Positions 4,101 through 62,992 of a stretch of DNA of 64,000 nucleotides are shown in pieces. The DNA is from Prauserella aidingensis. GTDB taxonomy: Bacteria > Actinomycetota > Actinomycetes > Mycobacteriales > Pseudonocardiaceae. The position numbers and the translations under genes were made by a program. Where the stretch lies: contig NZ_JAMTCN010000005.1 of the NCBI RefSeq assembly GCF_024171865.1, forward strand, positions 62,001-126,000, read 5' to 3'. How positions within the stretch are numbered: the stretch's first letter is position 1; each line of letters opens with the position of its first letter. The notes below the pieces were generated by a model. The model was not told the DNA's origin and did no database searches. It saw only the letters and a list, made by a program, of their open reading frames with translations.

Positions 4101-4193
4101 CACAACACGCACCCCCGAATCCGCAACACGCACCCCCGGATCCGCAACACGGGCTCCCGAATCCGCAACACGCGCCCCGGGATCCGCAACACG
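4101..4193 (+). repeat. 21-bp tandem array A (5 units, CGCAACACG core)
   Basis: Cores begin at 4101 (CACAACACG), 4122, 4143, 4164 and 4185, exactly 21 bases apart. The 12-nt linkers resemble GCACCCCCGAAT or GGCTCCCGAATC. The array ends 40 bases before the iron box of the FecCD operon, so it lies in that operon's upstream region. Confidence 0.95.
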
Positions 4194-4232
4194 GCGTTGC
4201 GTGGGGAGACACACGTCGTGGCGCGTCACCCG

Positions 4233-4251
4233 ATTGGTTAGCCTCACCTTA
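4233..4251 (-). promoter_or_regulatory. IdeR/DmdR1-type iron box overlapping the FecCD start
   Basis: On the minus strand the site reads TAAGGTGAGGCTAACCAAT, 15 of 19 matches to the iron-box consensus. It ends on the A of the ATG at 4251. On the plus strand TAGCCT at 4239-4244 lies six bases before the ATG, so the transcript may be leaderless with the repressor box covering the -10 region and start point. Confidence 0.75.
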
Positions 4252-5417
4252 TGTCGTCGACCGCCGGAGCCGAGCCCGGAGCCCGCACCTCGTCGGGCAC
4301 ACGCGCCGCCGGCAGCGCTCCCACCACGGGCGGAGCGGCCCCCACCACGGGCGGAGCGGGTCCCACCACGGGAGGAGGGGCTCCCACGGACGGGGCGGCC
4401 ACCCGTGGCCCGACCGCACGGGGGACCGTCGCACGCGGTGTCGGGTTGCTGGTGGCGGCCGGGGTGCTGGTGCTTCTCGCGCTGGCGAGCGTGTGGTTCG
4501 GGTCGAAGGGCATTCCCTTCCTGCAGACGTGGGACCTGCTGTGGCACGCCGACGGATCGGACGCGTCCGTGGTGATCCACGAGTACCGCATCCCGCGCAC
4601 GATCCTCGCCGTGCTCGTCGGTGCGAGCCTCGGCCTCGCGGGCGCGCTCATGCAGGCGCTCACCCGCAACCCGCTCGCCGACCCCGGCCTGCTCGGCATC
4701 ACGATGGGCGCCTCGACCGGTGTCGCACTGGCACTGACGTACCTGGGCATCACGACCGTGCTCGGCTACGTGTGGCTCGCGTTCGCGGGAGCCGCCGTCG
4801 CGAGCGTCGTCGTCTACGCGCTCGGCAGCGCGGGCGCGCGGAATGCCACGCCCGAACGGCTCGTGGTCGCCGGTGCCGCCGTCACCGCGGTGCTGTTCGC
4901 CGTCAACAGCGGGCTCATGCTCACGGCGCCGGACGCGTTCGAGGAGTTCCGGCGCTGGCAGGTCGGGTCGCTGTCCGGCCGCTACTACGACGTCCTGATG
5001 CCCGTGCTGCCGTTCATGGCCGTCGGCGTCGTGGCGGCGCTGCTGCTGATGCGCCCGCTCAACGCCCTCGCCATGGGTGACGACCTCGGCCGCGCGCTGG
5101 GCGCTCACCCGGACCGCATCCGCATCGCCGGGGCCGTCGCGATCACCCTGCTGTGCGGTGCCGCCACGGCCGCCGTCGGGCCGATCGGGTTCGTCGGCCT
5201 CGCGGTGCCGCACGTCGCCCGGTTCCTCGCCGGACCCGATCAGCGCTGGGTGCTGCCGTACTCGCTAGTGCTCGCGCCCGTGCTGCTCGTCGGAGCCGAC
5301 CTGGTGGGCCGCGTCGTCGCACCGCCCGCGGAGATCCAGGTCGGCATCGTCACGGCGGTCGTCGGTGTGCCGGTGTTCCTCGTCCTGTGCCGCAAGCGAA
5401 AGCTGACGTCCCTGTGA
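4251..5417 (+). CDS. FecCD-family iron-siderophore ABC permease, first subunit
   Basis: A 388-residue polytopic membrane protein of the FecCD (BtuC) family. It forms half of the membrane channel importing ferric siderophores. After a low-complexity N-terminus of about 55 residues rich in APTTGGA-type repeats come about nine to ten hydrophobic helices. Family motifs include EYRIPRTILAVLVGASLG and GALMQALTRNPLADPGLLGI near residue 135, and FVGLAVPHVARFLAG near 315. It overlaps the second permease by a GTGA. The iron box at the start indicates iron repression. No substrate-binding lipoprotein gene is in the window. Confidence 0.94.
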   Translation: MSSTAGAEPGARTSSGTRAAGSAPTTGGAAPTTGGAGPTTGGGAPTDGAATRGPTARGTVARGVGLLVAAGVLVLLALASVWFGSKGIPFLQTWDLLWHADGSDASVVIHEYRIPRTILAVLVGASLGLAGALMQALTRNPLADPGLLGITMGASTGVALALTYLGITTVLGYVWLAFAGAAVASVVVYALGSAGARNATPERLVVAGAAVTAVLFAVNSGLMLTAPDAFEEFRRWQVGSLSGRYYDVLMPVLPFMAVGVVAALLLMRPLNALAMGDDLGRALGAHPDRIRIAGAVAITLLCGAATAAVGPIGFVGLAVPHVARFLAGPDQRWVLPYSLVLAPVLLVGADLVGRVVAPPAEIQVGIVTAVVGVPVFLVLCRKRKLTSL

Positions 5418-9128: not shown

Positions 9129-9732
9129 GGCGCGACAGTAGCCGCCTGCCGCCCTCGACGAAACCCAAGATCAGCAGGCCCAGCGCGAACGCCACGAGCA
9201 GCCCCGCCACCGGATCGTCCGCGAAACTCGCCGCGCCGGCCGCCCCGATCAGCACCGAGTACGCCGCCCAGATCGTCGTGCCCGCCAGGTCGAGGACCGC
9301 GAACCGGCCGAACGGATACCTCAGCCCGCCCGTCGCCAACGACGACGCGACCCGTCCCCCAGGGAAGTAGCGGCCCGCGACGATCAACAGCACGGCGTGC
9401 CTCCGGAGCCGGCCCTGGGCCCACGCGTAGTTCCGCCTGCCCCGTTCGCTGCGCAGGAGGCGGGACGTGCCGAACGGACCGAGACCGCGGCCGATCCCGT
9501 GGCCCGCGCAGTCGCCCGCCCACGCGCCGAGCGCCGCGACCACGGTCAGTCCCGCCAACGCCGGCACGTCGGACGTGCCCAGCAGAACGGCCATCGTGAT
9601 CACGGTCGACTCGCTCGGCATGAACGGCAGCAGCGCATCCAGCCCCGCGACCGCGAACACCACCAGCCACAGCCACGGCTCGTCGAGGTGGCTCTGCAGC
9701 AGCGTGGTGATGTCGTGCAGGAGGTCAAACAT
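8995..9732 (-). CDS. DedA-family membrane protein
   Basis: A 245-residue SNARE-associated/DedA protein with about five hydrophobic segments. Family features are LDALLPFMPSESTVITMAVL near residue 30 and GRYFPGGRVASSLATG near 120 (the F/YxR...G motif). DedA proteins are linked to lipid flipping and envelope homeostasis. The cytoplasmic tail after residue 205 is a Pro/Gln/Glu repeat (PQPQPAEQPQSTEQ) encoded by the same 18-bp array that encodes the N-terminus of the next gene in another frame. The start overlaps the stop of the olsA-like gene by eight bases, suggesting one operon olsB-olsA-dedA. Confidence 0.88.
   Translation of the reverse strand: MFDLLHDITTLLQSHLDEPWLWLVVFAVAGLDALLPFMPSESTVITMAVLLGTSDVPALAGLTVVAALGAWAGDCAGHGIGRGLGPFGTSRLLRSERGRRNYAWAQGRLRRHAVLLIVAGRYFPGGRVASSLATGGLRYPFGRFAVLDLAGTTIWAAYSVLIGAAGAASFADDPVAGLLVAFALGLLILGFVEGGRRLLSRREHRADESGPQSGPQPQPAEQPQSTEQFQPAEQSPCADEYRPAR
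9028..9099 (-). repeat. 18-bp tandem array in the overlap of two genes
   Basis: Four units of 18 bases start at 9028, 9046, 9064 and 9082 on the plus strand, related to GGGCTGCTCTGCGGGTTG. The array lies in the 134-base overlap of the DedA and isomerase-family genes and is read in two frames: Glu-Gln-Pro-Gln repeats in one and Pro-Gln-Ser-Ser in the other. Confidence 0.85.
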
Positions 9733-10561
9733 GCGCGGCCCCGTGGTCGGCGTGCGTGGTGGCCGCGGGGCGGGACGCGGCGTCTCCCTGGACGGCGTGC
9801 TGCGCGCGGTGGGCGAGGGTGCGGCGGTCGCCGGTCGGGCCGAGGGCGTCGTGGACGTCGACGTCGACCTCGAGCTCGCGGGCCCTGACGACGCGGACCA
9901 GTGACGCCGCCAGTCCGTCGTCGCCGACGAACGCCGCGATCGTCGACGGTTCGCCGCGCTGGCGGTACGTCAGCGTGACCGGCCGTACCGGGGCGCCGGC
10001 GTCGAGAGCCGCCTGGAACACCGCACGGCGGAACGGTCCGCCCGGGGCGCTGCACCACGTCGTGGCCTCGGGGAACACGACGACCGTCTCGCCCGCCCGG
10101 AGTCGTTCGGCGACGGCGCCGACCGAGGCGGGCAACCCGCGCAGCGACCACCGGTCGAGCAGCAGCGTGCCCATCCGCCGCGCCTGCCCGCCGACGAACG
10201 GCCAGCCCGCGACCTCACGTTTCGCCAGGAACCGCACCGGCTCGAGCGTCAGCAGCGCCGGAATGTCCAGCCACGACACGTGATTCGCCACGACGAGCGT
10301 CCCCACGCCGTGTTGCGCTTCCCGGGCGCCGTGTTGCGGTCTCCGGGGCGCGTGTTGCGGATTCGGGGGTTCGTGTTGCGGGTTCACGGTGAGCGGGCCG
10401 GTGGCGGTGAGCGCGACGCCCAGGGCGTCGAGGGCGGCCGCGGCCCGGTGCCGGACGTCGGTGACACCCCGGTGGTCGATGTCGCGGTGGTGGTCGGTGT
10501 CGTCGAGGAGCGTGCTGGTCAGGACTTTCGCGAGGGCCACGGTTCGCCGCACGCTCTCCAT
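9725..10561 (-). CDS. olsA: Lysophospholipid/lyso-ornithine-lipid acyltransferase (PlsC/OlsA-like) with 21-bp repeat insert
   Basis: A 278-residue PlsC-family acyltransferase. The HX4D motif is NHVSWLD near residue 90, and the glycerol-phosphate-binding region is VVFPEATTW. Just before NHVSWLD, about 28 residues are an in-frame 7-residue repeat (NPQHEPP-type) encoded by array B. Homologues normally have a short loop between the GPLTV-like segment and the HX4D strand. It lies 80 bases after an OlsB-like N-acyltransferase gene, so O-acylation of lyso-ornithine lipid (OlsA) is the likely role. The start ATG at 10561 begins MESVRRTVALAKVL; a GTG three codons earlier is an alternative. A generic 1-acylglycerol-phosphate acyltransferase role is not excluded. 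Confidence 0.8.
   Translation of the reverse strand: MESVRRTVALAKVLTSTLLDDTDHHRDIDHRGVTDVRHRAAAALDALGVALTATGPLTVNPQHEPPNPQHAPRRPQHGAREAQHGVGTLVVANHVSWLDIPALLTLEPVRFLAKREVAGWPFVGGQARRMGTLLLDRWSLRGLPASVGAVAERLRAGETVVVFPEATTWCSAPGGPFRRAVFQAALDAGAPVRPVTLTYRQRGEPSTIAAFVGDDGLAASLVRVVRARELEVDVDVHDALGPTGDRRTLAHRAQHAVQGDAASRPAATTHADHGAAHV
10309..10380 (-). repeat. 21-bp tandem array B inside olsA-like gene (4 units)
   Basis: On the plus strand CGTGTTGCG begins at 10309, 10330, 10351 and 10372, always 21 bases apart. On the coding (minus) strand the frame is CCG-CAA-CAC, giving Pro-Gln-His every seven residues. It sits directly ahead of the catalytic NHVSWLD motif without disrupting the frame. Confidence 0.95.
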
Positions 10562-10641
10562 GGTGCGCACCGGCGGCAACCGGTGCGTGACGCACCGGGG
10601 AGTGCACGGTGAACTTGCCCGCCACGGGTTGGCCCCTGCGT

Positions 10642-11529
10642 TCACCGGTCGTCTCCGAGGAGGTAACGCAGGTAACGGTCGTCGACGTCGGCGAGTGGCA
10701 GCAGGACGTAGAAGTCGGCGACGTCGAAATCCGGATCGTGGGCGGGCGGTCCGCACACCCAGGCGCCGAGGCGCAGGTATCCGCGCAGCAGAGGGGGCAG
10801 GTCGGCGTACCGCGGGCGGTCGGAGGCGCGCGGCGGCAGCCACGGCCGGTGCGGGCGTACGCGGTACTCGGCGGGGGAGGCGTGCCGGGTGGAGGCGAGG
10901 TGCCAGGCGCTCGTCGCCGCGTGTCCGCCGTCGCCGAGCGGCACCGACGCGCAGCCGCCCAGGTGGCCGTGGCCCGCGAGGAGCGTGTACCGCGCGAGGG
11001 CCGACCACATCAGCGTGATGACGGACCCGTTGCGGTGCGCAGGCGCCACGCACGAACGGCCTGCCTCGACGATGTCGCCCGCGAGCGGTGCCAGGTCGGC
11101 GAGGTCGAACTCGGTCGCCGAATAAGGGACGGGAGAGCGGTGCGGCGGCAGGATCCGGTACGTGCCGACGAGTTCGCCGGTCGGCTCGTGGGTGACGACG
11201 AGGTGATCGCACAGCTCGTCGAACGCGTCCGCGTCGACCCCCGCGTGTCCTGCACTCGGCACCGTGTGTTCTGCGTTCGCGTCGCCGTGTTGCGGATCTG
11301 GGGGCTCGTGTTGCGGGTTCGGGGGCTGGTGTTGCGCGTTCGTGGGGCGGTGTTGCGGGTTCGCGTCACGGTGGTGCGACGGGTTGACGCCGTGGGTGGT
11401 GGTCAGGTCGGCGCCGAGTTCGCCGGCGAACACGGTGGCGCGGAGTCGTTGCGCGGCGCGGATCTCCTCGCGGCTGTCGGCGATGCGGGCCGTGTAGGTC
11501 CGCGTCGATGCGGTCGACAACACGGGCAT
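10642..11529 (-). CDS. olsB: Ornithine N-acyltransferase-like GNAT protein (OlsB-like) with 21-bp repeat insert
   Basis: A 295-residue GNAT-superfamily protein resembling OlsB, which transfers a 3-hydroxyacyl group from ACP to ornithine to start ornithine-lipid synthesis. Family segments are RAAQRLRATVFAGELGAD, LVGTYRILPP, EAGRSCVAPAHRNG, GGCASVP and the C-terminal LPPLLRGYLRLGAWV followed by DVADFYVLLPL and RYLRYLLG. Between the first two, about 45 residues are an in-frame His/Pro/Gln/Asn repeat from array C in a region where homologues have a short variable loop. The start at 11529 has GGAGAG upstream; the longer frame from 11580 does not. The OlsB assignment rests on motif resemblance and on the adjacent OlsA-like gene. 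Confidence 0.8.
   Translation of the reverse strand: MPVLSTASTRTYTARIADSREEIRAAQRLRATVFAGELGADLTTTHGVNPSHHRDANPQHRPTNAQHQPPNPQHEPPDPQHGDANAEHTVPSAGHAGVDADAFDELCDHLVVTHEPTGELVGTYRILPPHRSPVPYSATEFDLADLAPLAGDIVEAGRSCVAPAHRNGSVITLMWSALARYTLLAGHGHLGGCASVPLGDGGHAATSAWHLASTRHASPAEYRVRPHRPWLPPRASDRPRYADLPPLLRGYLRLGAWVCGPPAHDPDFDVADFYVLLPLADVDDRYLRYLLGDDR
11286..11357 (-). repeat. 21-bp tandem array C inside olsB-like gene (4 units plus degenerate copies)
   Basis: On the plus strand CGTGTTGCG-type cores begin at 11286, 11307, 11328 and 11349 (the last two GGTGTTGCG), exactly 21 apart. Degenerate units precede them from about 11244 (CGTGTCCTGC, CGTGTGTTCTGCG). The coding strand uses the frame giving NPQHEPP-type heptads. 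Confidence 0.93.
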
Positions 11530-11748: not shown

Positions 11749-11799
11749 CGCAACACGGCCTCCGGAAAACGCAACACGGTCCCCGGAAAGCGCAACACG
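11749..11799 (+). repeat. 21-bp tandem array D (3 units)
   Basis: CGCAACACG begins at 11749, 11770 and 11791. The array starts 14 bases past the stop of the minus-strand gene at 11814. It ends in CGCAACACGCGTACGGA, the same junction as array E. Confidence 0.95.
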
Positions 11800-11813: not shown

Positions 11814-12449
11814 TCAGAAGGCACTGACGGTCGTCGGTGTGCGTTCGGCGCGGGCCAACGCACTGATCAATCGTGCCTGCCCATGGCGTTCCGTGGCCAG
11901 ATCTGCCAGGAGATGGAGCACCGGTGCGAACGCCTCCGTGGGAAAGGTCGGCGTGTCGACGTCAACGCTGCATGCGAGATCGTCGGCATGAACGACGATC
12001 TCCACGAGGCGCGTGAGCAGGAAATCGTCGCGACGAAGGCTCCACCCCTGCCACGGGATCGTGACGACCGCTCGAGCTCGGTCGCTGCGCAGCAGAACGT
12101 CGGCCCGGGCGAACGCCTCTCGGCACCTGCGCACCATGGCGTCGAATCCGGCAGCCGCCTCTGATTCGTCGCGGGTACGGTCGTTCGCCGGGTCGTCGAG
12201 CGACTCGGCCAGCACCCAGGGCGCGCGTCGGTAGTGGTCCGCAGCCCCGTCGACCGGCGGGCCCGTCGCGGGAACGGGCAGAACCTCGGCGGCACGGACG
12301 AGTTGCCGGCCGAGGTGGCAGGCGAGCATGCCGACGGTCATGCGCTCGAGAGAACTGTCGGCATCCCAGTTTCGTTCGACGGCCGGGTCCGCCACGAGGT
12401 CGAGCGTGATCTGTGCGGCGGCGAGGAAGGCGCGGTCCCGGGTGTCCAT
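11814..12449 (-). CDS. Mycothiol-dependent maleylpyruvate isomerase-like (DinB-fold) protein
   Basis: A 211-residue DinB/MDMPI-fold protein without the C-terminal SCP2-like domain. The three expected metal ligands appear: His in GMLACHLGRQLV (near residue 46), and Glu plus His in TRLVEIVVHADDLA (near 147-152). Members are zinc-dependent thiol (mycothiol) transferases or isomerases, but the substrate is unknown. It is flanked by 21-bp arrays on both sides (D downstream, E upstream) and has no evident operon partner. Confidence 0.82.
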   Translation of the reverse strand: MDTRDRAFLAAAQITLDLVADPAVERNWDADSSLERMTVGMLACHLGRQLVRAAEVLPVPATGPPVDGAADHYRRAPWVLAESLDDPANDRTRDESEAAAGFDAMVRRCREAFARADVLLRSDRARAVVTIPWQGWSLRRDDFLLTRLVEIVVHADDLACSVDVDTPTFPTEAFAPVLHLLADLATERHGQARLISALARAERTPTTVSAF

Positions 12450-12484: not shown

Positions 12485-12577
12485 TGCAACACGATCCCCT
12501 GGAAGCGCAACACGGTCCCCGGAGACCGCAACACGACCCCCTGGAAACGCAACACGGTCCCCGGAGACCGCAACACG
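12485..12577 (+). repeat. 21-bp tandem array E (5 units)
   Basis: Cores begin at 12485 (TGCAACACG), 12506, 12527, 12548 and 12569, always 21 apart. Linkers alternate between two types, ending CCCTGGAA and CCCCGGAGAC, which suggests amplification of a 42-bp dimer. The array lies 29 bases past the stop of the methyltransferase gene (minus strand). Confidence 0.95.
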
Positions 12578-12606: not shown

Positions 12607-13413
12607 TCAGCGTGGGGCGACGGACGTCCACGGGACGGTGAGTTCGCCGAGGCGCCAGCGCGCCGGGCGGTTCAGGACCGGCCAGCCGGACGCGGCCAGC
12701 AGGCGTACCGTCTCGGTCCAGCGCGCCCGCGGGCCGTACGCCGAGAACGGTGCCGCCGTCGCCCAGCATCGGTCCACACGCGACAGGAACTCGTGGACTC
12801 GCTCGCCCGGAACATTGCGGTGTATCAACGCCTTCGGCAACCGTTCCGCCACAGTGGACGGACGCTCCAACGAGGCGACTCGGCACGACAGCGTCAGCGA
12901 CACCGGCCCGCGACGCGACACCGTGGCCCACGTGCACACCCTGCCGATCTCGTCGCACGTGCCCTCGACGAGCAGGCCGCCGGGGATGATCCGCTCGAGC
13001 ATCGCCCGCCAGGACGGTTCGACGTCCGACTCGTCGTACTGCCGCAGCACGTTGAACGCCCGCACCACCGCGGGCCGGGCGCCGGCGAGTTCGAACCCGC
13101 CGCGCCGGAAGTCCAGTACCGGCGGTGTCGCCGCCGCCTGGCCCGCGGCCACTCGCTCCGGGTCGAGTTCCAGTCCGAGCACCCGCACGTCCGGCACCGC
13201 CGCGCGCAACCGCGTGGCCAGCTCGACTGTCGTGACGGGCGATGCGCCGTAGCCGAGGTCGACGACCAGCGGTGAGGACTCCGAACGCAGGGCACGCCGG
13301 ACGCCGAGGTCGGCGGTCAGCCAGCGGTCGATGCGCCGCAAGCGGTTCGGGTTGGTGGTTCCTCTGGTCGGCGAGCCGAGCGGCTCGGCGCGCTTCAGCT
13401 GCGCGCGAGCCAC
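12607..13413 (-). CDS. Class I SAM-dependent methyltransferase, substrate unknown
   Basis: A 268-residue protein with a Rossmann-type SAM-binding motif [17 protein letters not shown] near residue 49 and an acidic second strand [14 protein letters not shown] near 78. The N-terminus [20 protein letters not shown] looks conserved-type and basic. It begins at a GTG overlapping the end of the DUF2505 gene by 19 bases, so the two are translationally linked. I do not recognise a substrate. Confidence 0.75.
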
Positions 13414-20964: not shown

Positions 20965-21494
20965 GCGACCGCGACGTGAGCGACGTCGACGCGATCGTGC
21001 GGTCGGCGCTCGATGCCTCCGAGGTGCCGTACGACCGGCGCGGCGAAGGCGTCTACTTCGTGACGCTGCCCGGAGTGAAGAAGCTGCAGACCAATGCCTG
21101 GCTGGTCGTGCGGGAGCACTCGTTGGCTGTGGAGGCGTTCGTGTGCCGGCGTCCGGACGAGGCGCACGAGGACGTCTACCGGTTCCTGTTGAGGCGGAAC
21201 GCGAAGCTGTACGGCGTGGCCTACACGCTGGACTCGGCGGGCGACATCTACCTGGTCGGCAGGCTGGGGCTCGACGCCGTGTCGGCCGACGAGGTCGACA
21301 CCGTGCTGGGCCAGGTGCTGGAAACGGCGGACGGCGACTTCAACAGCCTGTTGGAGCTGGGGTTCGCGAGTTCGATCCGCAGGGAGTGGGACTGGCGCGT
21401 CAGCCGCGGCGAGTCGTTGGCCAACCTGCAGGCGTTCAAGCACCTCGTCGAACCGAGCACCGAGCATCGTCCGGGCACGCTGACCGACGACTGA
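20961..21494 (+). CDS. YbjN-domain protein
   Basis: A 177-residue YbjN-family protein (Rv0487-like). The fold resembles type III secretion chaperone/CesT-like proteins, but the actinobacterial role is unknown. Conserved-looking parts are [41 protein letters not shown] and [14 protein letters not shown]. It starts at GTG overlapping the mshA stop, so it is translationally coupled. Confidence 0.88.
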
Positions 21495-21515
21495 CGCCGG
21501 TGGCCGGGCCGGGAC

Positions 21516-21673
21516 GCAGAACACGCGGGCGTAGGCGCAGAACGCGCGGAACCGAGCGCAGGACTCGCGCATGAGCGCAGTCGCGCGGCGTCGAGGGACG
21601 GTGGTCGGGTGACGGGTGGGCGCAGAACACGCGCCCCTGGAAACGCAACACGGTCCCCCTGAAACGCAACACG
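21516..21673 (+). repeat. 21-bp arrays with two core types (array F)
   Basis: The first part has cores GCAGAACACG at 21516, GCAGAACGCG at 21537, GCAGGACTCG at 21558 and GCAGTCGCG at 21577 (spacings 21, 21, 19). The second part has GCAGAACACG at 21622, then CGCAACACG at 21644 and 21665. The adjacency of the two core types at the same period suggests they are variants of one family. It begins 22 bases after the ybjN stop. Confidence 0.85.
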
Positions 21674-23718: not shown

Positions 23719-23811
23719 CGCAACACGGCCTCGCGAATCCGCAACACGGGCCCCGGGATCCGCAACACGGGCTCGCGAACCCGCAACACGGGCCCCGGAA
23801 TCCGCAACACG
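23719..23811 (+). repeat. 21-bp tandem array G (5 units)
   Basis: CGCAACACG begins at 23719, 23740, 23761, 23782 and 23803, exactly 21 apart. Linkers resemble GCCTCGCGAATC or GGCCCCGGGATC. It lies between the duplicated segment and senX3, 126 bases before the senX3 start. Confidence 0.95.
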
Positions 23812-40530: not shown

Positions 40531-40620
40531 CGTGTTGCAGATTCCGGAGGCCGTGTTGCGGCTTGCGGAGCCCGTGTTGCGGTTCCAGGGCGCCGTGTTG
40601 CAGACCCAGGGCCCGTGTTG
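40531..40620 (-). repeat. 21-bp tandem array H (5 units)
   Basis: On the plus strand CGTGTTGCA/G begins at 40531, 40552, 40573, 40594 and 40614 (spacings 21, 21, 21, 20). It starts 24 bases after the ligase stop. The last interval is one of the few departures from 21. Confidence 0.95.
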
Positions 40621-40745
40621 CAGGTTTCGGGGCCGCTCACACCCGCCCGTCCCCGCCACACCGGCCGGTCGCGTTGCGGACCGAGCCGGACCGACCGTCA
40701 CCGGTCGACGACCGGCCACGGCCTCGTCGACGTCGCGATCGCACG

Positions 40746-42336: not shown

Positions 42337-42450
42337 CGCAACACGCGCGCCGGAAACCGCAACACGCGCCCCTGGATCCGCAACACGCGCCCCTGGATCC
42401 GCAACACGCGCCCCTGGATCCGCAACACGCGCCCGTGGATGTGCAACACG
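42337..42450 (+). repeat. 21-bp tandem array I (6 units)
   Basis: Cores begin at 42337, 42358, 42379, 42400, 42421 and 42442 (the last TGCAACACG), all 21 apart. Three consecutive linkers are identical (CGCCCCTGGATC), suggesting recent amplification. Confidence 0.96.
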
Positions 42451-44631: not shown

Positions 44632-44724
44632 CGCAACACGGTCCCCGGGATCCGCAACACGGTCCCCTGAACGCGCAACACGCGCCCCGGAAACCGCAAC
44701 ACGGTCTCCCGGGGCTGCAACACG
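44632..44724 (+). repeat. 21-bp tandem array J (5 units)
   Basis: Cores begin at 44632, 44653, 44674, 44695 and 44716 (the last TGCAACACG), all 21 apart. The array ends 114 bases before the Rex operator, so it is upstream of the rex-hem promoter as well as downstream of the oxidoreductase. Confidence 0.96.
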
Positions 44725-48862: not shown

Positions 48863-50395
48863 ATGACCCCCCCAAGCAAGACCACGGGGCGCGTCGCCTT
48901 CGTGGGCTCGGGCCCCGGTGACGCGGGACTGCTCACGGTCCGCGCCCAGGAGCTGCTGGCCAAGGCCGACGTCGTCGTCACCGACCCGGACGTCCCGGCG
49001 GGCGCGCTCGCCTACGCCCGCGAGGAGGCCGAGGCGCGTCCCGCGGTCGGTGAGCCGGGGGACGTCGCGAAGGACCTGGCCACGGAGGCCGAGTCGGGCC
49101 GCGTGGTGCTGCGTCTCGTCGCGGGAGACCCGTTGACGCAGCCCGCGGTCGTGGCCGAGGTGCAGGCCGTGTCGAAGACCGAGGTCGTGTTCGACATCGT
49201 GCCGGGCGTCGCGCCCAGCACCGCCGTTCCCGCGTACGCGGGCCTGCCGCTCGGCGGCACCCACACCGAGGTCGACCTGACTCGCGACGTCGACTGGAAG
49301 GGCGTGGCGCAGGCGCAGGGCCCGATCGTGCTGCACGGCACGTCCAGCCACCTCGCCGAGGCCGCCTCGCAGCTGATCGACAACGGCATCCCCGCCGAGA
49401 CGCCCGTGGCGGTCACGTCGAACGGCACCATCAACACGCAGCGCACCGTGGAGACGACCCTCGCCTCGCTCGGTGCCGACGCCGGTGAGCTCGCCGGTTC
49501 GCTGATCGTCACGGTCGGGTCGATCGTGTCCGACCGTAAGCAGCTGTCGTGGTGGGAGTCCCGCGCGCTGTACGGCTGGAAGGTCCTCGTGCCGCGTACG
49601 AAGGACCAGGCGGGCGACATGGCCGAGCGGCTCCGCAGCCACGGCGCCACCTCGCACGAGGTGCCGACGATCTCCGTCGAGCCGCCCCGTAGCCCCGCGC
49701 AGATGGAACGTGCGGTCAAGGGCCTGGTCGACGGCCGGTTCCAGTGGATCGTGTTCACCTCGGCCAACGCGGTGAAGGCCGTGCTGGAGAAGTTCACCGA
49801 GTTCGGCCTCGACGCCCGCGCGTTCGCCGGCGTGAAGATCGCCTGCGTCGGCGAGGCGACGGCCGAGAAGGTGCGCTCCTTCGGGATCCAGCCGGAGCTC
49901 GTGCCCGAGGGCGAGCAGTCGAGCGAGGGCCTGCTCAAGGAGTTCCCGCCGTACGACGACGTGCTCGACCCGGTGAACCGCGTGCTGCTGCCGCGCGCCG
50001 ACATCGCCACGGAGACCCTGTCCGCCGGTCTGACCGATGCGGGCTGGGAGGTCGACGACGTGACCGCGTACCGCACGGTGCGTGCCGCGCCGCCACCCGC
50101 CGAAACCCGCGAGATGATCAAGACGGGCGGGTTCGACGCCGTGTGCTTCACGTCGTCGTCCACCGTGCGGAACCTGGTCGGCATCGCGGGTAAGCCGCAC
50201 GCCCGCACGCTCGTGGCGTGCATCGGCCCGAAGACGGCCGAGACGGCGACGGAGTTCGGCCTGCGTGTCGACGTGCAGCCGGAGACCCCGAACGCCGTGG
50301 AGCTCGTCGACGCGCTCGCCGCCCACGCGGCGAAGCTGCGCGCCGAGGGCGCTCTGCCGCCGCCGAAGAAGGCCAAGCGCACGCGCCGCTCCTGA
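48863..50395 (+). CDS. hemD: Uroporphyrinogen-III synthase with degenerate N-terminal methyltransferase-like domain
   Basis: A 510-residue fusion. Residues 10-235 resemble the SAM uroporphyrinogen-III methyltransferase (CobA/SirA) fold: VAFVGSGPGDAGLLTVRAQE is the N-terminal motif, but the GDP-type motif reads LVAGDPLTQPA and several CobA signatures are weak. Residues about 245-500 are HemD: WKVLVPRTKDQAGDMAERL, VFTSANAVKAVLEKF, PRADIATETLSAGLTDAGW and CFTSSSTVRNLVGIAG. It cyclises hydroxymethylbilane to uroporphyrinogen III. This domain order is common in actinobacterial hem clusters (Rv0511 is similar). A basic KKAKRTRRS tail ends it. Confidence 0.92.
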   Translation: MTPPSKTTGRVAFVGSGPGDAGLLTVRAQELLAKADVVVTDPDVPAGALAYAREEAEARPAVGEPGDVAKDLATEAESGRVVLRLVAGDPLTQPAVVAEVQAVSKTEVVFDIVPGVAPSTAVPAYAGLPLGGTHTEVDLTRDVDWKGVAQAQGPIVLHGTSSHLAEAASQLIDNGIPAETPVAVTSNGTINTQRTVETTLASLGADAGELAGSLIVTVGSIVSDRKQLSWWESRALYGWKVLVPRTKDQAGDMAERLRSHGATSHEVPTISVEPPRSPAQMERAVKGLVDGRFQWIVFTSANAVKAVLEKFTEFGLDARAFAGVKIACVGEATAEKVRSFGIQPELVPEGEQSSEGLLKEFPPYDDVLDPVNRVLLPRADIATETLSAGLTDAGWEVDDVTAYRTVRAAPPPAETREMIKTGGFDAVCFTSSSTVRNLVGIAGKPHARTLVACIGPKTAETATEFGLRVDVQPETPNAVELVDALAAHAAKLRAEGALPPPKKAKRTRRS

Positions 50396-50459: not shown

Positions 50460-50531
50460 CGTGTTGCAGATCCCGGAGCCCGTGTTGCGGCTTCGGGGGA
50501 CCGTGTTGCAGGTCCCGGGGCCTGTGTTGCG
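50460..50531 (-). repeat. 21-bp tandem array K (4 units)
   Basis: Cores begin at 50460 (CGTGTTGCA), 50481, 50502 and 50523 (TGTGTTGCG) on the plus strand, 21 apart. It begins 13 bases after the hemD terminator, so it is outside the transcript. Confidence 0.95.
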
Positions 50532-52113: not shown

Positions 52114-52134
52114 TCCGGCCCCGCTGAGCGGGAT

Positions 52135-52209
52135 GCAGGGCACGCAATACCGGGTGCAGGGCACGCGTGCCCGAGCGCAGAACTCGCAGTGCCGGGTGCA
52201 GGACACGCG
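52135..52209 (+). repeat. 21-bp tandem array N (4 units, GCAGRRCACG core)
   Basis: GCAGGGCACG at 52135 and 52156, GCAGAACTCG at 52177, and GCAGGACACG at 52198: spacing exactly 21. The linker type (CAATACCGGGT) differs from the CGCAACACG arrays. It lies between two convergent genes, 11 bases past the M20 peptidase stop. Confidence 0.9.
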
Positions 52210-52220
52210 GCCGGGTGGGG

Positions 52221-55215: not shown

Positions 55216-55836
55216 GTGAGCGGCAGCGACAGCACCGGCAAGCGCGACGAGAAGGCCGGCGGTGACCAGGCACGCGGACATGCGGCGGACGACGACGTGG
55301 CCACCGAGGACACGGCCGGTACCGAGGACACGGCGGCCACCGGCAGTGGTGTGGGCGCGGCGGACACGGGCGCGGGCGACCCCGACGGGGCGGGCGACGT
55401 CGTCCACTACGCCGAGCCGGGGGCGACGCTGTGGCGACTGGGGCTCGGCCCGGCGCTGGCGGCGCTCGGGTTCGTCACGGAGCTGATCCTCGGCCAGCCG
55501 CCGCACTGGCTGATGTGGATCATCACGGGCGTCGGCCTGCTGTGGTTGAACGGGGCGTGGGTGTTCGCGCGGCGCAAGTTCCTGCGGGTCCGCGTCACCG
55601 ACACGGAGCTGGTGCAGGGCACCGAGACACTGCCGATCGCCGACATCGGGTCGATCCTCACCCGGGAACCCCGGCCCGGCACGCGCGTGCTCGGCGGCGG
55701 CCAGACCGTGCCACGCCGGTTCGAAGGGGTCGAGCTCAAGCTGCGCAACCGCAAGCACGTGCTGGCGTGGTCGCAGGACTCGGAGACGTTCACGGCGGCG
55801 TTGCGGACGGCCATGCGAAACTCACGCCGTGACTGA
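55216..55836 (+). CDS. Membrane protein with possible PH-like C-terminal domain
   Basis: A 206-residue protein. About 65 low-complexity residues lead to two helices (LWRLGLGPALAALGFVTELI and WLMWIITGVGLLWLNGAWVF). The soluble part LRVRVTDTELVQGTETLPIA with RRFEGVELKLRNRKHVLAWS has a beta pattern like bacterial PH domains. It starts at GTG 55216, 10 bases after the previous stop, and overlaps the next gene by eight bases. The function is unknown. Confidence 0.82.
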   Translation: MSGSDSTGKRDEKAGGDQARGHAADDDVATEDTAGTEDTAATGSGVGAADTGAGDPDGAGDVVHYAEPGATLWRLGLGPALAALGFVTELILGQPPHWLMWIITGVGLLWLNGAWVFARRKFLRVRVTDTELVQGTETLPIADIGSILTREPRPGTRVLGGGQTVPRRFEGVELKLRNRKHVLAWSQDSETFTAALRTAMRNSRRD

Positions 55837-56314
55837 ATCCGCGGATCGCACCGCCACCGACTCCGCCGCGCCGGCAGTTCCGGCCGGGTCCGCGGCGACG
55901 CGCACGTCCACGTCCGGTGACGACCGCCGGGCCGGCGCGGGCCGCGGCAGGCTGCACCAGCCGCGCCGGATCGCTGCCGCCGTCGTCGAACTCGCCGTGG
56001 CCGCTGTGGCCGTGTGGGGTGCCTTCCTGCTGTGGGGGTCGGCGGTTCGCGACGTCACCGTCCGCCTCGACGACGGCAGCACGCTGACCTCCCGTGTCTA
56101 CGAGGGCGACCTGATCGGACTCGCCGTCGCGCTGGGCGCGCTGGCGGCGGTACTGCTCATCGACGCCGTCCGTCAGGTGATGCTCGGCGTCGCGGCCAAG
56201 GGCAAGAAGCCGAAGAAGCGCAAGCGGCCCGACCCCGACGAACCGGACGACGCCGAGCCGGGCGACACCGACCACGCCGAGCCGGAGGACGCCGACGCGC
56301 GCGCAGGGCGCTGA
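55829..56314 (+). CDS. Two-helix membrane protein, function unknown
   Basis: A 161-residue protein with an Ala/Thr-rich N-terminus, a first helix [20 protein letters not shown], an extracytoplasmic-looking loop [20 protein letters not shown], a second helix [20 protein letters not shown], and a highly charged tail ([18 protein letters not shown]). It starts at GTG 55829 overlapping the previous stop. No family recognised. Confidence 0.8.
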
Positions 56315-56339
56315 GCCGATACGCGCACGCCGCACCGAT

Positions 56340-56440
56340 CCGCCCACGAGCCGCGTCGACCCGCCCACGACCCGCGCCGACCTGCCCACGCTGCACCGAT
56401 CTGCCCACGGGCCGCGCCGACCTGCCCACCAGCCGCACCG
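56340..56440 (+). repeat. 21-bp tandem array of a different sequence (GCCCAC core)
   Basis: GCCCAC begins at 56340, 56361, 56382, 56401 and 56422 (spacings 21, 21, 19, 21). The units resemble CGACCTGCCCACG plus eight GC-rich bases. It lies in the 265-base gap before hemL and is unrelated in core sequence to the CGCAACACG arrays, but it has the same period. Confidence 0.85.
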
Positions 56441-57902: not shown

Positions 57903-58528
57903 CCACCACGGTCGTCCACCTGCTGCGGCACGGGGAGGTTCACAACCCCGAGGGCATCCTCTACGGCAGGCTGCCCGGCTACGGACTGTCCGAGCGGGGC
58001 AGGCAGCAGGCGGTCACCGTGGCGCAGGCGCTGAAGCCGCACAACCTCGTCCGCGTCGTGGCCTCACCGTTGCAGCGCGCGCAGGAGACGGCCGCGCCGA
58101 TCGCGGGCGGGCACCGGCTCGACGTCGTCACCGACGAACGCCTCATCGAGGCGGACAACGCGTTCGAAGGCCTGCGGGTCAGCGTGGGTGACGGTGCGTT
58201 GCGGCAGCCGGAGCACTGGCCGAAGCTGCGCAATCCGGTACGTCCGTCGTGGGGCGAGCCGTACGTCGACATCGCGCGCCGCATGCTGGGCGCCGTGTAC
58301 CGGGCACGCGCCGCCGCGGAAGGCGGTGAGGTGCTGTGCGTGTCGCACCAGCTGCCGATCTGGACGGTGCGGCGGTTCCTCGAAGGCAAACGGCTGTGGC
58401 ACGACCCGCGGTCCCGGCAGTGCTCGTTGGCGTCGCTGACCAGCCTCGTGTTCCGTGAGGAGGAGCTCGTGGACATCGTCTACAGCGAACCCGCAGGCGC
58501 GACGGACCCGATGGTGACCGGGGCATGA
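57899..58528 (+). CDS. Histidine phosphatase family protein
   Basis: A 209-residue phosphoglycerate-mutase-like phosphatase. The RHG motif is [14 protein letters not shown] near residue 9, and the second His is in [11 protein letters not shown] near 150. It is not a true mutase (short, no 2,3-BPG loop). This is the Rv0525-type gene always placed between hemL and tlpA; the substrate is unknown. It overlaps both neighbours by 4 bp. Confidence 0.92.
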
Positions 58529-59136
58529 GCAGGCGCGGCAGGAGCCGGTCGCCGGGCCTCCGGCTGGCGGCCGCCGTGCTCGCGGGCGGACTGGCCCTCA
58601 CCGGGTGCAGCACGGGTGACAGCTCCGCGGCCACGTCGTTCAACTTCGTCGCACCCGGCGGTAAGACCGACATCACCTACACGGGCGCCGACCGGCAGCA
58701 GATGCCGGAGGTCAGCGGCGAGGACCTGTTCGACCCGGACAAGCGGATCTCCAGCAAGGATTTCCGCGGCAAGGTGCTCGTCATCAACATCTGGGGCCAG
58801 TGGTGCGGGCCGTGCCGCACCGAAGCGCCGGAACTGCAGGACGTGTACGAGCGGACGAAGGACGACGGTGTCCGGGTGCTCGGCATCGACGTGCGCGACT
58901 TCGACCGGTCCGCACCGCAGGACTTCATGCGCAACCGTGGCCTGACGTACCCGTCGATCTACGATCCCTCCGGGCGGTCGCTCATCGGCCTGACGGGGTA
59001 TCCGCGCAACGTCGTTCCGTCGACGATCATCGTCGACAAGCAGGGCCGCGTCGCCGCCGTCTACCTGCGTGACCTGCTCGCCGAGGACATCCTTCCGGTC
59101 GTCCGCGATCTGGCGGACGAGAGCGGCGGCTCGTAA
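58525..59136 (+). CDS. TlpA/ResA-like thioredoxin lipoprotein
   Basis: A 203-residue lipoprotein. The signal LRLAAAVLAGGLALTGC ends in lipobox LTGC (Cys near 30). The thioredoxin fold holds WCGPC near residue 93 in INIWGQWCGPCRTE. cis-Pro is in NVVPSTIIVD. It reduces apocytochrome c haem-binding cysteines outside the membrane, receiving electrons from CcdA. It is coupled by ATGA to the phosphatase and precedes ccdA by 224 bases with array L between. Confidence 0.95.
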   Translation: MSRRGRSRSPGLRLAAAVLAGGLALTGCSTGDSSAATSFNFVAPGGKTDITYTGADRQQMPEVSGEDLFDPDKRISSKDFRGKVLVINIWGQWCGPCRTEAPELQDVYERTKDDGVRVLGIDVRDFDRSAPQDFMRNRGLTYPSIYDPSGRSLIGLTGYPRNVVPSTIIVDKQGRVAAVYLRDLLAEDILPVVRDLADESGGS

Positions 59137-59144
59137 CCCGACGC

Positions 59145-59216
59145 CGTGTTGCGCCCTTCGGGGCCCGTGTTGCGCCTTCCAGAGGCTGTGTTGCGTTCTC
59201 CGGGCGCCGTGTTGCG
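59145..59216 (-). repeat. 21-bp tandem array L (4 units) plus inverted copy
   Basis: On the plus strand cores begin at 59145, 59166, 59187 (TGTGTTGCG) and 59208, all 21 apart. A single unit in the opposite orientation (CGCAACACG) lies at 59246. The first core is eight bases after the tlpA stop. Confidence 0.95.
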
Positions 59217-59255
59217 CCCACCCGTTGCTTGTCCCGGCGGGTGGGCGCAACACGG
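59207..59255. terminator. Perfect 18-bp hairpin built from two inverted 21-bp repeat units
   Basis: CCGTGTTGCGCCCACCCG (59207-59224) is the exact reverse complement of CGGGTGGGCGCAACACGG (59238-59255), with a 13-nt loop. It lies between tlpA and ccdA and could terminate or process the transcript. It shows that head-to-head units of the repeat family can make strong RNA structure. Confidence 0.75.
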
Positions 59256-59347: not shown

Positions 59348-59353
59348 TAGTCT
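59348..59353 (+). promoter_or_regulatory. Probable -10 element of a leaderless ccdA-resB-ccsB transcript
   Basis: TAGTCT is followed by exactly seven bases and the GTG of ccdA at 59361, without a Shine-Dalgarno sequence. With the hairpin upstream this suggests a separate promoter for ccdA-resB-ccsB. Confidence 0.5.
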
Positions 59354-59360
59354 GGGTGTC

Positions 59361-60140: not shown

Positions 60141-61930
60141 CCCCAGCGCCGTCCGAGCAGACCGACAACGCCGACAACGCCGTGCCCGCCTACCGCGCGA
60201 CACCGCTGCGCAGGGCGTGGGCGCTGGTCCGCAACACCTGGCGTGGCCTGACGTCGATGCGCACCGCGCTGATCCTGCTGTTCCTGCTCGCCGTCGCCGC
60301 GCTGCCGGGTGCGCTGCTGCCGCAGCGGTCGGTCAACGAACGGAACGTCAACGGCTACCTGGACGAACACGGCTGGTGGGGCAGCCTGCTCGACAGCCTC
60401 CAGATGTTCGACGTCTACTCCAGCGTCTGGTTCTCGGCGATCTACCTGCTGCTGATGGTGTCGATCATCGGCTGTCTCGTGCCGCGGACGTCGGACTACA
60501 TCCGCAGCATGCGGTCCAGGCCGGTGCTGACGCCGCGGAATCTGCGCCGGTTGCCGCACCACGAGCGCGTCGAGACCACCGACGACGTCGACGCCGTCAT
60601 GGCCGGCGCGCGTCGACGCCTGCGGGGATGGCGGCTCGCCGAGCGTGAGGAGGCGGGCGGCGCACGCAGCATCAGCGCCGAACGCGGCTACCTGCGCGAG
60701 ACCGGCAACCTGCTGTTCCACTTCGGCATGCTCGGCGTGATCATCTCGTTCGCGGCCGGTGCGCTGTACTCGTACGAGGGTCAGGTCGTGGTGCTGGCCG
60801 ACGGCTCGGAGTTCTGCAACTCCGGTATCTACAACTACGACGCGTTCGAACCGGGTCTGCAGGTCGACGGCACCCAGCTGAACCCGTTCTGCGTGCGTGT
60901 GAACGACTTCGACGCGGAGTACCGAGGCGGCCAGCCCGTGGCCTACGAGGCCGACATCGACTACCAGTCCGGCGACGACCTGCAGACCGGCACGTGGCGG
61001 CAGCACCACCTCGAGGTCAACGAGCCGCTGCGCACCGCGGGGGACCGGTTGTACCTGCTCAACCACGGGTACGCGCCGACGTTCACGGTGACCTTCCCCG
61101 ACGGGCAGAGCCGCACCCAGACCGTCCAGTGGCGGCCGGTCGACCAGCAGACCTACCTGTCCGAGGGTGCGACGAAGTTCGAGGAACCGGGCATCACGGA
61201 CCCGGTGAAGCGGCGGGAACGGCAACTCGCGGTGACGGGCCTGTTCGCGCCGACGCCGTCGATGCACGGCAACATCCTGTCGTCGGCGGGGCCGCAGCTG
61301 AACGATCCGCAGGTCGCGGTCGACATCATGCGCGGCGACCTGGGGTTCAGCTCGGGGCGTGGACAGTCGATCTTCGAGATCGACCAGTCGATGGTCGACG
61401 CGGGCAGGCTCGAACGGGTCGCGCGCGAGAACCTCGAGGTCGGCCAGTCCCTCACCCTGGACGACGGCACGCGGGTGACGTTCGACGGCGTGGAGCGGTT
61501 CGTCGCGCTGCAGGTCTCGCACGATCCGCTGCAGAACTGGGTGCTCGTGTCGGCGATCGTGATGTTCGCCGGGCTCGGGGCGTCGCTGTTCATCAAGCGG
61601 CGCAGACTGTGGGTGCGCGCCACGCCGGTCGAGGTGACGGCGGGTGCCACGGGTGAAGGTGCTGCCGACGGCGAAGGTGCTGCCGCGGGCGCTGCCGGTG
61701 ACGACGCCGGTGGCGGTGCTGCCGGCGGCGACGGTGCCCGCGATGAGGGCAATGCCGCCGGCGACGAGAGCGCTGCCGGCGGCGTGACCGCAGGTGACGG
61801 CACCGCGGGTGACGCGAAACCCGACCCACGACGTACCGTAGTAGAAGTGGGCGGGCTCGCCCGCACCGATCAAGCCGGGTACGGCGAGGAGTTCACGCGC
61901 ATCGCCGCCGAACTCCTCGGCCGGAAGTAG
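60137..61930 (+). CDS. resB: Cytochrome c biogenesis protein ResB (CcsB/Ccs1 family)
   Basis: A 597-residue membrane protein. Helices are LILLFLLAVAALPGALLPQ (near residue 50), VWFSAIYLLLMVSIIGCLV, and GNLLFHFGMLGVIISFAAGA with a conserved His. A large extracytoplasmic domain (about 215-470) follows, then a last helix VLVSAIVMFAGLGASLFI. It acts with CcsB(ResC) in haem delivery and ligation. After residue 510 there is a Gly/Ala/Asp repeat region (GEGAADGEGAAAGAAGDD) before a conserved-looking C-terminal YGEEFTRIAAELL helix. It overlaps ccdA by 4 bp. Confidence 0.94.
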   Translation: MTPAPSEQTDNADNAVPAYRATPLRRAWALVRNTWRGLTSMRTALILLFLLAVAALPGALLPQRSVNERNVNGYLDEHGWWGSLLDSLQMFDVYSSVWFSAIYLLLMVSIIGCLVPRTSDYIRSMRSRPVLTPRNLRRLPHHERVETTDDVDAVMAGARRRLRGWRLAEREEAGGARSISAERGYLRETGNLLFHFGMLGVIISFAAGALYSYEGQVVVLADGSEFCNSGIYNYDAFEPGLQVDGTQLNPFCVRVNDFDAEYRGGQPVAYEADIDYQSGDDLQTGTWRQHHLEVNEPLRTAGDRLYLLNHGYAPTFTVTFPDGQSRTQTVQWRPVDQQTYLSEGATKFEEPGITDPVKRRERQLAVTGLFAPTPSMHGNILSSAGPQLNDPQVAVDIMRGDLGFSSGRGQSIFEIDQSMVDAGRLERVARENLEVGQSLTLDDGTRVTFDGVERFVALQVSHDPLQNWVLVSAIVMFAGLGASLFIKRRRLWVRATPVEVTAGATGEGAADGEGAAAGAAGDDAGGGAAGGDGARDEGNAAGDESAAGGVTAGDGTAGDAKPDPRRTVVEVGGLARTDQAGYGEEFTRIAAELLGRK

Positions 61931-61942
61931 AAGGGCCTGGAG

Positions 61943-62992
61943 ATGCCGGTCAACGAGACGTTGTCGCAGTACAGCGACTGGTCGTACACCACATCCGTCG
62001 TCATCTACATCCTGGCGATGGTGTTCTTCCTCGTCGAGCAGTCCTTCGGCAGGCGAGGCCGGGAGGTCGCCGAGCGCACCCGCAACCGGGAACTCGTCGG
62101 CGCCGGAATCGACAACACGACCTCCCGAATCGGCAACACGGCGCCCGGAATCGACAACACGACCCCCGGAATCCACAACACGACCCCCGGAATCCACAAC
62201 ACGGGCCCCGGGATCCGCAACACGGGCGGGGCGCCGACGCGGGCGGAGCGGTTCGGTCGCATGGGCATCGCGCTCACGGTGCTGGGCCTGCTGCTGCACG
62301 GCTCGGCACTCGTGCTGCGCGGGCTCGCGACCAGCCGTGTGCCCTGGGGAAACATGTACGAGTACGTGATGATCACGTGCTTCGTCGCCGTCACGGCCTG
62401 GTTGGTGCTGCTGCGTAAGCACCCGGTGCGACACCTGTCGATGTTCGTGCTGCTGCCGAACGTGATCCTGATGTTCATCGGCGGCACCTGGCTCTACGCC
62501 GTCGCCGCGCCGCTGCAGCCCGCGCTCCAGTCGTACTGGCTGATCATCCACGTCGCGGCCGCCGCGGCGTCGTCCGGCGTGTTCCTCGTCCCCGGTGTCG
62601 CGAGCATCTTCTACCTGATCAAGGCACGTAACGAGAGTCACCCGGAGAAGTTCGCGAAGTTCGCGGCGAAGCTCCCGGCGAAGGACGTGCTCGACCGCGT
62701 CGCGTACCGGACGACGGTCTTCGCGTTCCCGGTCTTCACCTTCGGAGTGCTGTGCGGGGCGGTCTGGGCCGAAGCCGCATGGGGCCGGTTCTGGGGCTGG
62801 GATCCGAAGGAGACGGTCGCGTTCATCGCGTGGATCGTCTACGCCGCCTACCTGCATTCCCGTGCCACGGCGGGCTGGCGCGGGAACCGTGCCGCGGTCA
62901 TCAATGTGATCGGTTTCGCAGTCACGGTGTTCAACCTGTTCTTCGTCAACCTCGTCACCACCGGCCTCCACTCGTACGCGGGAGTTGGCTGA
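61943..62992 (+). CDS. ccsB: Cytochrome c biogenesis protein CcsB (ResC/CcsA family) with in-frame 21-bp repeat insert
   Basis: A 349-residue haem-handling membrane protein. The WWD-type haem-binding motif is WGRFWGWDPKETVAF near residue 285; conserved His occur in LHGSALVLRG, WLIIHVAAAAASSGVF and YLHSRATAGWRG. Between the first helix (VIYILAMVFFLVEQSF) and the second, about 40 residues are a seven-residue repeat (IDNTTPG, IHNTGPG) encoded by array M, on the cytoplasmic loop by expected topology. It is the last gene of the System II operon. Confidence 0.94.
   Translation: MPVNETLSQYSDWSYTTSVVIYILAMVFFLVEQSFGRRGREVAERTRNRELVGAGIDNTTSRIGNTAPGIDNTTPGIHNTTPGIHNTGPGIRNTGGAPTRAERFGRMGIALTVLGLLLHGSALVLRGLATSRVPWGNMYEYVMITCFVAVTAWLVLLRKHPVRHLSMFVLLPNVILMFIGGTWLYAVAAPLQPALQSYWLIIHVAAAAASSGVFLVPGVASIFYLIKARNESHPEKFAKFAAKLPAKDVLDRVAYRTTVFAFPVFTFGVLCGAVWAEAAWGRFWGWDPKETVAFIAWIVYAAYLHSRATAGWRGNRAAVINVIGFAVTVFNLFFVNLVTTGLHSYAGVG
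62111..62224 (+). repeat. 21-bp tandem array M inside ccsB (6 units)
   Basis: Cores begin at 62111 (GACAACACG), 62132 (GGCAACACG), 62153, 62174 (CACAACACG), 62195 and 62216 (CGCAACACG), all 21 apart. The coding frame is AAC-ACG (Asn-Thr), different from the frame used in arrays B and C. Only the last unit has the canonical core; the others vary at the first two bases. Confidence 0.95.

Follow-up and report, generated by a model that had tools for sequence, protein, structure and literature searches.

Phased 21-bp repeat arrays with lineage-specific cores at gene ends of Prauserella aidingensis and other Pseudonocardiaceae: candidate operators of a putative DNA-binding protein

Plasmid iterons are direct repeats of approximately 17 to 22 bp in helical register, which are bound by an initiator protein at replication origins. 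In eukaryotes, proteins bound downstream of genes at sites such as TTF-I Sal boxes or Reb1 sites bring RNA polymerase to a halt, and the uptake sequences of Neisseriaceae and Pasteurellaceae are short genome-wide motifs that occur in single copies and differ in consensus between related lineages. In Streptomyces, the short direct repeats of clt are bound by TraB, and repetitive extragenic palindromic sequences (REPs) are associated with RAYT transposases. Here, we describe a family of short dispersed arrays with a pitch of 21 bp, which we analyzed in a stretch of 64,000 nucleotides from Prauserella aidingensis (contig NZ_JAMTCN010000005.1, positions 62,001 to 126,000; hereafter the window) and followed into other genomes of the Pseudonocardiaceae. 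Two further bacterial systems come close to it. REPs, as described in PMC3733652, are palindromic and mostly carry GTAG or CGTC tags. BldC, according to the account in PMC5859096, binds cooperatively and head-to-tail to direct repeats of variable number, with AATTXXXX(C) as protomer site in AT-rich nine-base repeats, and acts at developmental promoters.

The unit of the arrays is a 9-bp core, CGCAACACG in its A-type form, joined by 12-bp linkers with a common consensus. Like REPs and bacterial interspersed mosaic elements, as far as the cited description of these goes, the arrays are small dispersed intergenic repeats in convergent and co-directional gaps downstream of coding regions, some lie in genes, and elements are frequently paired in opposite orientation. 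Unlike the REPs described there, they are direct repeats without a palindrome, have a fixed pitch and vary in core from lineage to lineage. The core CGCAACACG is no palindrome and provides no stem-loop unit, but inverted array pairs in G238, G024 and G186, genomes of other genera, could fold. The REP-like location, downstream of coding regions in convergent or co-directional gaps, was found here too, except that adjacency to stop codons is missing in G186. With the BldC operators of the cited account, the arrays share head-to-tail direct repeats in variable number (two to nine units here). BldC itself was rejected as the binder, as array consensus and pitch do not fit the AT-rich nine-base site given there. 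In contrast to iterons, the arrays are scattered along the chromosome at the ends of genes and form no cluster at an origin. Their position downstream of genes is reminiscent of TTF-I and Reb1 sites, and a similar block of RNA polymerase is conceivable. Unlike uptake sequences, they form phased arrays rather than single dispersed motifs, and by repeat form alone they differ from clustered regularly interspaced short palindromic repeats (CRISPR), which combine long identical repeats with unrelated spacers. Thus, the arrays resemble REPs in location and iterons in geometry, and may resemble BldC sites in binding mode. Because the palindrome of REPs, the origin of iterons and the AT-rich nine-base repeats of BldC sites are all absent, we regard them as a categorically new class. 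In agreement with the earlier note on this DNA, which knew no element of this form, we found no description in the open-licence literature, subscription journals being outside the scope of the search, so that unseen literature may describe it; Rfam covariance models at gathering score gave no match on the arrays.

Exact copies of CGCAACACG occur 41 times in the window (29 on the plus and 12 on the minus strand) compared to 0 to 4 times in each of ten order-2 Markov resamples. A chain search allowing one mismatch recovered 13 arrays in the window, at or within the positions given by the earlier note, and none in the 10 resamples, and Tandem Repeats Finder reported period 21 at all 13. Every interval within these arrays is 21 bp save one of 20 bp in the array at 40531, and 40 of the 41 exact cores sit within arrays, the exception being the core at 59246. 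The 13 arrays listed in the earlier note therefore hold far beyond chance, and the fixed spacing supports its proposal that all cores face one side of the helix. Two of the arrays are less uniform than the note had it: the one at 21622 opens with a unit of a second core type, and the first units of the one at 62111 are up to two bases off the core. Its placement of the arrays in gaps adjoining gene ends is correct for the ten intergenic ones; three (10309, 11286 and 62111) lie inside called genes, in frame and on the strand of the gene (gene calls are those of a codon-usage script). Two further 21-bp arrays of the second (B) core type are degenerate and have approximate limits (Table 1).

In the window and 87 additional loci (L001-L087), 130 distinct arrays of two to nine units were counted, with a spacing of exactly 21 bp in 385 of 399 intervals. 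Conservation amounts to 90-100% at core positions, a value that partly reflects the choice of units with no more than one mismatch, and to 32-86% at linker positions. The 87 loci and most stretches of the genomes G003, G024, G238 and G186 had been selected for holding arrays. A self-match scan of gaps that makes no use of the core nevertheless singled out lag 21 in six genome sets (16/114, 11/127, 5/46, 31/170, 21/101 and 17/117 gaps), four of which were sampled at arrays; lag 21 was not outstanding in G021 (1/47 gaps) and G012 (0/41).

Cores of different type and orientation obey the same geometry. Same-strand A and B cores within 70 bp of each other are exactly 21, 42 or 63 bp apart in 74 of 117 cases, i.e. 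both types keep one register. In the commoner class of inverted pairs, spacings are mostly near multiples of 10.5 bp: five of six -/+ pairs in G024 are 18 bp apart (39 bp in the other), 8 of 11 +/- pairs in G238 20-21 bp (11, 29 and 41 bp in the rest) and 7 of 11 +/- pairs in G186 10-12 bp (24, 52, 52 and 93 bp in the rest). These spacings may share descent, by which the Rayleigh test overstates their independence. Inverted pairs of Prauserella (-/+ 95, 104 and 104 bp) are too few for a test of phase.

Orthologous arrays diverge unevenly. In 33 ungapped pairs, substitutions per site amount to 0.098 in the core and 0.330 in the linker, with 0.185 in the 120-bp flanks, which include coding DNA. 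The core is slower than the linker in 32 of the 33 pairs and 3.4-fold slower overall. These pairs remained from 124 candidates after removal of duplicates and of pairs with gaps inside the array or a flank divergence of at least 25%; the unfiltered rates are similar (core 0.110, linker 0.345, flank 0.202). The choice of units with at most one mismatch applied to the query side only; units that are not orthologous may be paired in the alignments, and B-type arrays are among the targets. Constraint within the unit is thus unequal, where a neutral minisatellite would show uniform constraint. Of the 12 linker positions, neighbours within an array share 8.38 and linkers of different arrays 7.53; identical linkers make up 9.8% and 0.4% of these pairs, respectively. 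As neighbouring linkers are barely more alike than distant ones, most units are not fresh copies.

The sequence of the core depends on the lineage, whereas the pitch and an ACACG anchor persist, a feature that adds to the first description of the arrays. The B type, GCAGRACACG, is a second 21-bp core that occupies the same gaps as the A type. P. salsuginis has 182 B and 59 A pairs, P. rugosa no B and 249 A pairs, and the B core was also found in three of four sampled genomes of another genus (g4). G149, a member of the genus without A pairs, has 21-bp arrays of a C core, TGCTGACACG. Across six genomes, the ACACG-centred consensus unit reads gGaAtCCGCAACACGggCCCC in G000, CgaGrTGCTGACACGGCGACG in G149, GGAGTGCAGGACACGGCGTCG in G003, CaagCTGCGGACACGGCTACG in G024, cgGacGGACGACACGCGTacc in G238 and GGAGCGGCgAACACGCCGCCc in G186. 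One divergent gap of G149 (locus L124, 8769-10369) harbours a particularly long C-type array of approximately 12 units.

Arrays recur at the same gene ends of six Prauserella genomes with differing cores. For instance, the gene at 121656-122522 (numbered relative to the window but beyond its end) is accompanied by A cores in G000, P. isguenensis and P. halophila, B cores in P. salsuginis and C cores in G149. When gene ends of G149 were compared with the orthologous ends of five relatives, one relative or more had an array for 6 of 7 array-bearing ends and for 6 of 35 array-free ends (p = 0.001). Likewise, B ends of P. salsuginis have A arrays in G000 or P. isguenensis in 6 of 7 versus 5 of 68 cases (p = 1.5e-5), some of these B ends also holding A in P. 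salsuginis, and the same comparison for P. alba gave 3 of 6 versus 5 of 61 (p = 0.02). Gap length was uncontrolled in all three comparisons. The switch extends into coding sequence, and this is its most telling case. Each of the seven Prauserella genomes has units spaced by 21 bp in one loop of the ccsB-type cytochrome c assembly gene, a loop that on our reading of the protein lies near the first membrane segments. These units are of C type in G149 and A-like (CAACACG) in the other six. The matched lengths of 1053 (P. alba), 1011 (P. isguenensis and P. rugosa) and 990 bases (P. salsuginis and P. halophila) step by whole multiples of 21, with G000 (1047) and G149 (999) off the series. The array type in ccsB tracks the DNA code of the genome and not the protein. 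An agreement of sites with G186 at two genes (2/2 versus 0/5, p = 0.048) was too small to be used.

The P. aidingensis genome contains 309 A-core pairs (175 forward, 134 reverse) and none of the reversed control pattern. Among 297 genomes of the family, nine matched, namely six of the seven Prauserella genomes with 59 to 309 pairs and three others with single matches. A scan of named genomes gave at least 87 loci; all 80 among the matches listed belong to Prauserella. These genus and family scans bear out the genome-wide system with fixed spacing and both orientations proposed in the earlier note, since the arrays are neither confined to the window nor spaced otherwise elsewhere. The wider pattern of three ACACG at 21 bp matched in 80 of the 297 genomes, where low counts may be due to chance given that about 50 genomes matched the reversed control. 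At least ten triplets were present in 39 genomes from 8 of 46 genera (g1, g4, g10, g16, g21, g25, g27 and g32) and in 2 genomes for the control (figures counted by hand), with a maximum of 365 in P. aidingensis. Outside the family, 12 of 395 sampled members of the phylum had one to three triplets versus 11 for the control, which is background only. The ACACG pattern overlooks arrays with other cores. From the pair counts we estimate dozens to more than 100 arrays per genome. In G238 (10.6 Mb, single contig), both strands match over most of the genome, with none before 786 kb among the matches listed. A replication-strand polarity in G186, where the matches listed were all on the plus strand over 1.5 Mb, was rejected as an artefact of that list, because totals are 180 forward and 174 reverse and a minus array in L148 was absent from it. 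Within single genera, triplet counts vary widely (0-354 in g27, 0-76 in g16 and 0-47 in g32), a natural contrast for tracing the putative binding protein.

Prauserella arrays lie in 62 convergent, 57 tandem and 14 divergent gaps, compared to 157, 370 and 210 among background gaps of at least 100 bp. Their median distance to the facing stop codon is 20 bp versus 60.9 bp under uniform placement. Corresponding values are 5.5 versus 33.2 bp in G238, 8 versus 25.1 bp in G024 and 13.5 versus 60.2 bp in G003 (n = 4). Stop adjacency persists in Prauserella, G238 and G024 if only convergent gaps are considered, the G238 result stemming in part from paired arrays that fill a gap. As convergent gaps need no promoter, it is not due to promoter avoidance there. 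In Prauserella, 87 of 119 arrays, including orthologs in several species, are oriented opposite to the nearest gene end. Opposite to same orientations per species are 9:3, 13:2, 10:7, 23:8, 17:3 and 9:7 (81 of 111 opposite; loci L081-L087 omitted). We discarded a universal orientation rule, the bias being missing in three other genera, and also a same-strand rule inside genes (15/21), because orthologs had been counted repeatedly and about four loci each way remained once similar genes were merged as orthologs. In Prauserella, 3' ends with an array are less folded than those without (z -0.56 versus -1.35; n = 33 and 150; p = 0.011). G186 leans to less folding as well, and G024 and G238 to more, none significantly. 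With folding results mixed across genera, a hairpin terminator was rejected.

The two-turn pitch, the common register, the mostly phased inverted pairs, the constraint on cores but not on linkers and the genome-wide replacement of the core point to a DNA-binding protein that acts from one face of the helix and has changed its specificity. Stop-codon adjacency and convergent gaps make a roadblock or insulator the leading function. Copies of the protein would load on one helix face, one per two turns (21 bp = 2 x 10.5), and loading would probably be cooperative. The resulting strip, mostly just past stop codons and between convergent genes, would most likely act as a nucleoprotein block that ends or insulates transcription. 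Specificity may have drifted between lineages, the arrays of each genome following with A, B, C or other cores. Pitch and ACACG anchor would have been kept, and inside the genus the site in many cases too. From these regularities we infer the protein, its cooperativity and the block of RNA polymerase. We consider it rather probable that the arrays are protein operators of some kind, including the topological variant discussed below. The chances seem evenly balanced that they are multi-site operators of a putative sequence-specific DNA-binding protein of drifting specificity with a blocking role at the ends of transcription units. The transcription block taken by itself is a tentative assignment. 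The fuller picture is equally tentative: across several genera of the family, a fast-evolving protein would coat two-turn-phased arrays at the ends of transcription units and insulate neighbouring genes, as a prokaryotic roadblock terminator or boundary strip with a recognition code that each lineage has rewritten, some of its sites lying in genes. If true, it would add an undescribed chromosome-wide protein-DNA system at the gene ends of an antibiotic-producing actinomycete family and would bear on how high-GC actinobacteria part convergent transcription units. The lineages would also offer a natural series for the joint change in specificity of a binder and its dozens to at least 100 sites.

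Several observations weigh against operators that block transcription. The rarer class of inverted pairs has no clear phase in G024 (+/- 24 bp) and G238 (-/+ 39, 72 and 82 bp), and neither have the -/+ pairs of G186 (21, 58, 59 and 106 bp). Arrays of G186 are no nearer to stop codons than by chance (92 versus 106 bp, p = 0.33), also in convergent gaps (p = 0.44), and the same holds for four arrays of G149 (26.5 versus 25.2 bp). Orientation is unbiased in G238 (16/36), G024 (15/24) and G186 (9/26). A strong terminator should not be tolerated within genes, yet 25 of 174 Prauserella arrays overlap called genes, and ccsB carries array units in every one of the seven genomes of the genus. Seven genomes from six other genera were compared over orthologous stretches of 12-15.5 kb and yielded no ACACG triplet at 21 bp. 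Of 43 gaps in these stretches, one holds a degenerate 21-bp array; it lies in G003, downstream of the ortholog of the gene at 38731-40506, which bears an array in the window too. Conservation of sites is therefore established inside the genus only.

The most serious rival to the operator is a tolerated minisatellite that spreads and grows by slippage or unit copying, has no function and is kept past stop codons as least-constrained DNA. We consider this unlikely, yet ahead of the other alternatives. It would account for variable unit numbers among orthologous arrays, polymorphic presence, the excess of identical linkers between neighbours, arrays in variable coding loops and the lack of stop adjacency in G186. 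It leaves unexplained why cores diverge far less than linkers, why most inverted pairs of three genera share one helical phase, why the arrays of one genome have a common core unlike that of its relative, and why arrays lie near one stop even in the convergent gaps of three of the four genera tested. Replication slippage, raised in the earlier note, thus fits the steps in copy number but neither the low core divergence nor the phased inverted pairs. The mobile mini-repeat suggested there is not supported: on our reading, four aligned orthologous sites changed by turnover in place and not by clean insertion, and one 151-base array query had no match in plasmid and phage records. A role in chromosome organization, its further suggestion, may apply as well; forward and reverse totals are similar. 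Overall, that interpretation is partly supported. Stretches in viral contigs with the A (9) or B pattern (7) looked unrelated by eye, and a viral origin was rejected on the strength of these stretches.

Alternatively, the strips could draw a nucleoid protein or a topoisomerase to places where supercoils driven by transcription build up, without a direct role in termination. PMC3733652 describes such a proposal for REPs and gyrase. Convergent and 3'-end placement, the both-strand matches over most of G238 and the tolerance of arrays within genes would suit such a site, which we rate as rather improbable: a universal topoisomerase predicts arrays in all genera instead of the 8 of 46 with at least ten triplets (other cores being overlooked), and switching of the core suggests a dedicated binder. 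An element that acts in the 3' untranslated region as RNA, bound by an RNA-binding protein or folding by itself, is less probable still. Single-stranded RNA offers no evident reason for the pitch or for the phase of inverted pairs, the strand bias is absent in three other genera, and array-bearing 3' ends of Prauserella fold less, with G186 leaning likewise, even if most arrays lie directly past stop codons, the downstream RNA strand of Prauserella mostly reads CGUGU (87/119, or 81/111 over six species) and the array ends of G024 and G238 show an insignificant lean to more folding. Most far-fetched is a signal for self-recognition or DNA handling with species dialects, comparable to uptake sequences or to the guidance motifs of FtsK/SpoIIIE, which are strand-biased along a replichore. 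Lineage-specific cores throughout the genome are what it would predict, but nearly all exact cores of the window (40/41) are in arrays, unlike single-site uptake signals, and forward and reverse totals are similar in each genome counted, replichores being unassigned.

Table 1. Arrays of 21-bp units in the window and the genes next to them
Position	Strand	Feature
4101..4193	+	A-type array, 5 units, divergent gap
10309..10380	-	A-type array, 4 units, in frame in plsC-like acyltransferase gene (9725-10570 -, PF01553)
11286..11357	-	A-type array, 4 units, in frame in GNAT-family gene (10642-11529 -, PF13444)
11749..11799	+	A-type array, 3 units, 15 bp off 3' end of gene 11814-12449 -
12485..12577	+	A-type array, 5 units, 30 bp off 3' end of gene 12607-13413 -
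21505..21569	+	Degenerate B-type 21-bp array, 11 bp past stop of gene 20961-21494 +
21622..21673	+	Mixed array, one GCAGAACACG unit, then two A-type units
23719..23811	+	A-type array, 5 exact cores, divergent gap
40531..40622	-	A-type array, 5 units, one interval of 20 bp, convergent gap
42337..42450	+	A-type array, 6 units, downstream of gene 41825-42196 +
44632..44724	+	A-type array, 5 units, downstream of gene 42653-44554 +
50460..50531	-	A-type array, 4 units, downstream of gene 48863-50395 +, convergent gap
52129..52217	+	Degenerate B-type 21-bp array, convergent gap 52114-52220
59145..59216	-	A-type array, 4 units, 9 bp past stop of gene 58525-59136 +
59246..59254	+	Lone inverted A core, facing the array at 59145
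62111..62224	+	6-unit array, in frame in cytochrome c assembly gene 61943-62992 + (PF01578)

Within the GNAT-family gene, B-type units follow the A-type array in one loop, and the array at 40531 lies 25 bp past the stop codon of the gene at 38731-40506 (plus strand). Two more 21-bp arrays have other cores. One with GCTCCCACCACGGGCGGAGCG (4317-4387) shares the divergent gap of the first A array at a distance of 124 bp, and one with GCCGCGCCGACCTGCCCACGA (56329-56440) lies directly past the stop codon of the gene at 55829-56314 (plus strand). A palindrome-like intergenic repeat of the AAGGTGCCCTTGGGGGC type, perhaps another dispersed family, was seen at gene ends in orthologous gaps of P. alba, P. 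halophila and G149.

Repeats with a period of 15 bp occur inside called genes at 37185-37383, 39213-39354 and 43106-43444, the latter two being low-complexity inserts of an AMP-binding ligase and a molybdopterin oxidoreductase, respectively. The sole Rfam match of the window is a guanidine-III riboswitch (RF01763, 3026-3090, minus strand, 50.2 bits) directly upstream of a 104-aa gene (2697-3011, minus strand), which, from its size and context, could encode a guanidine exporter.

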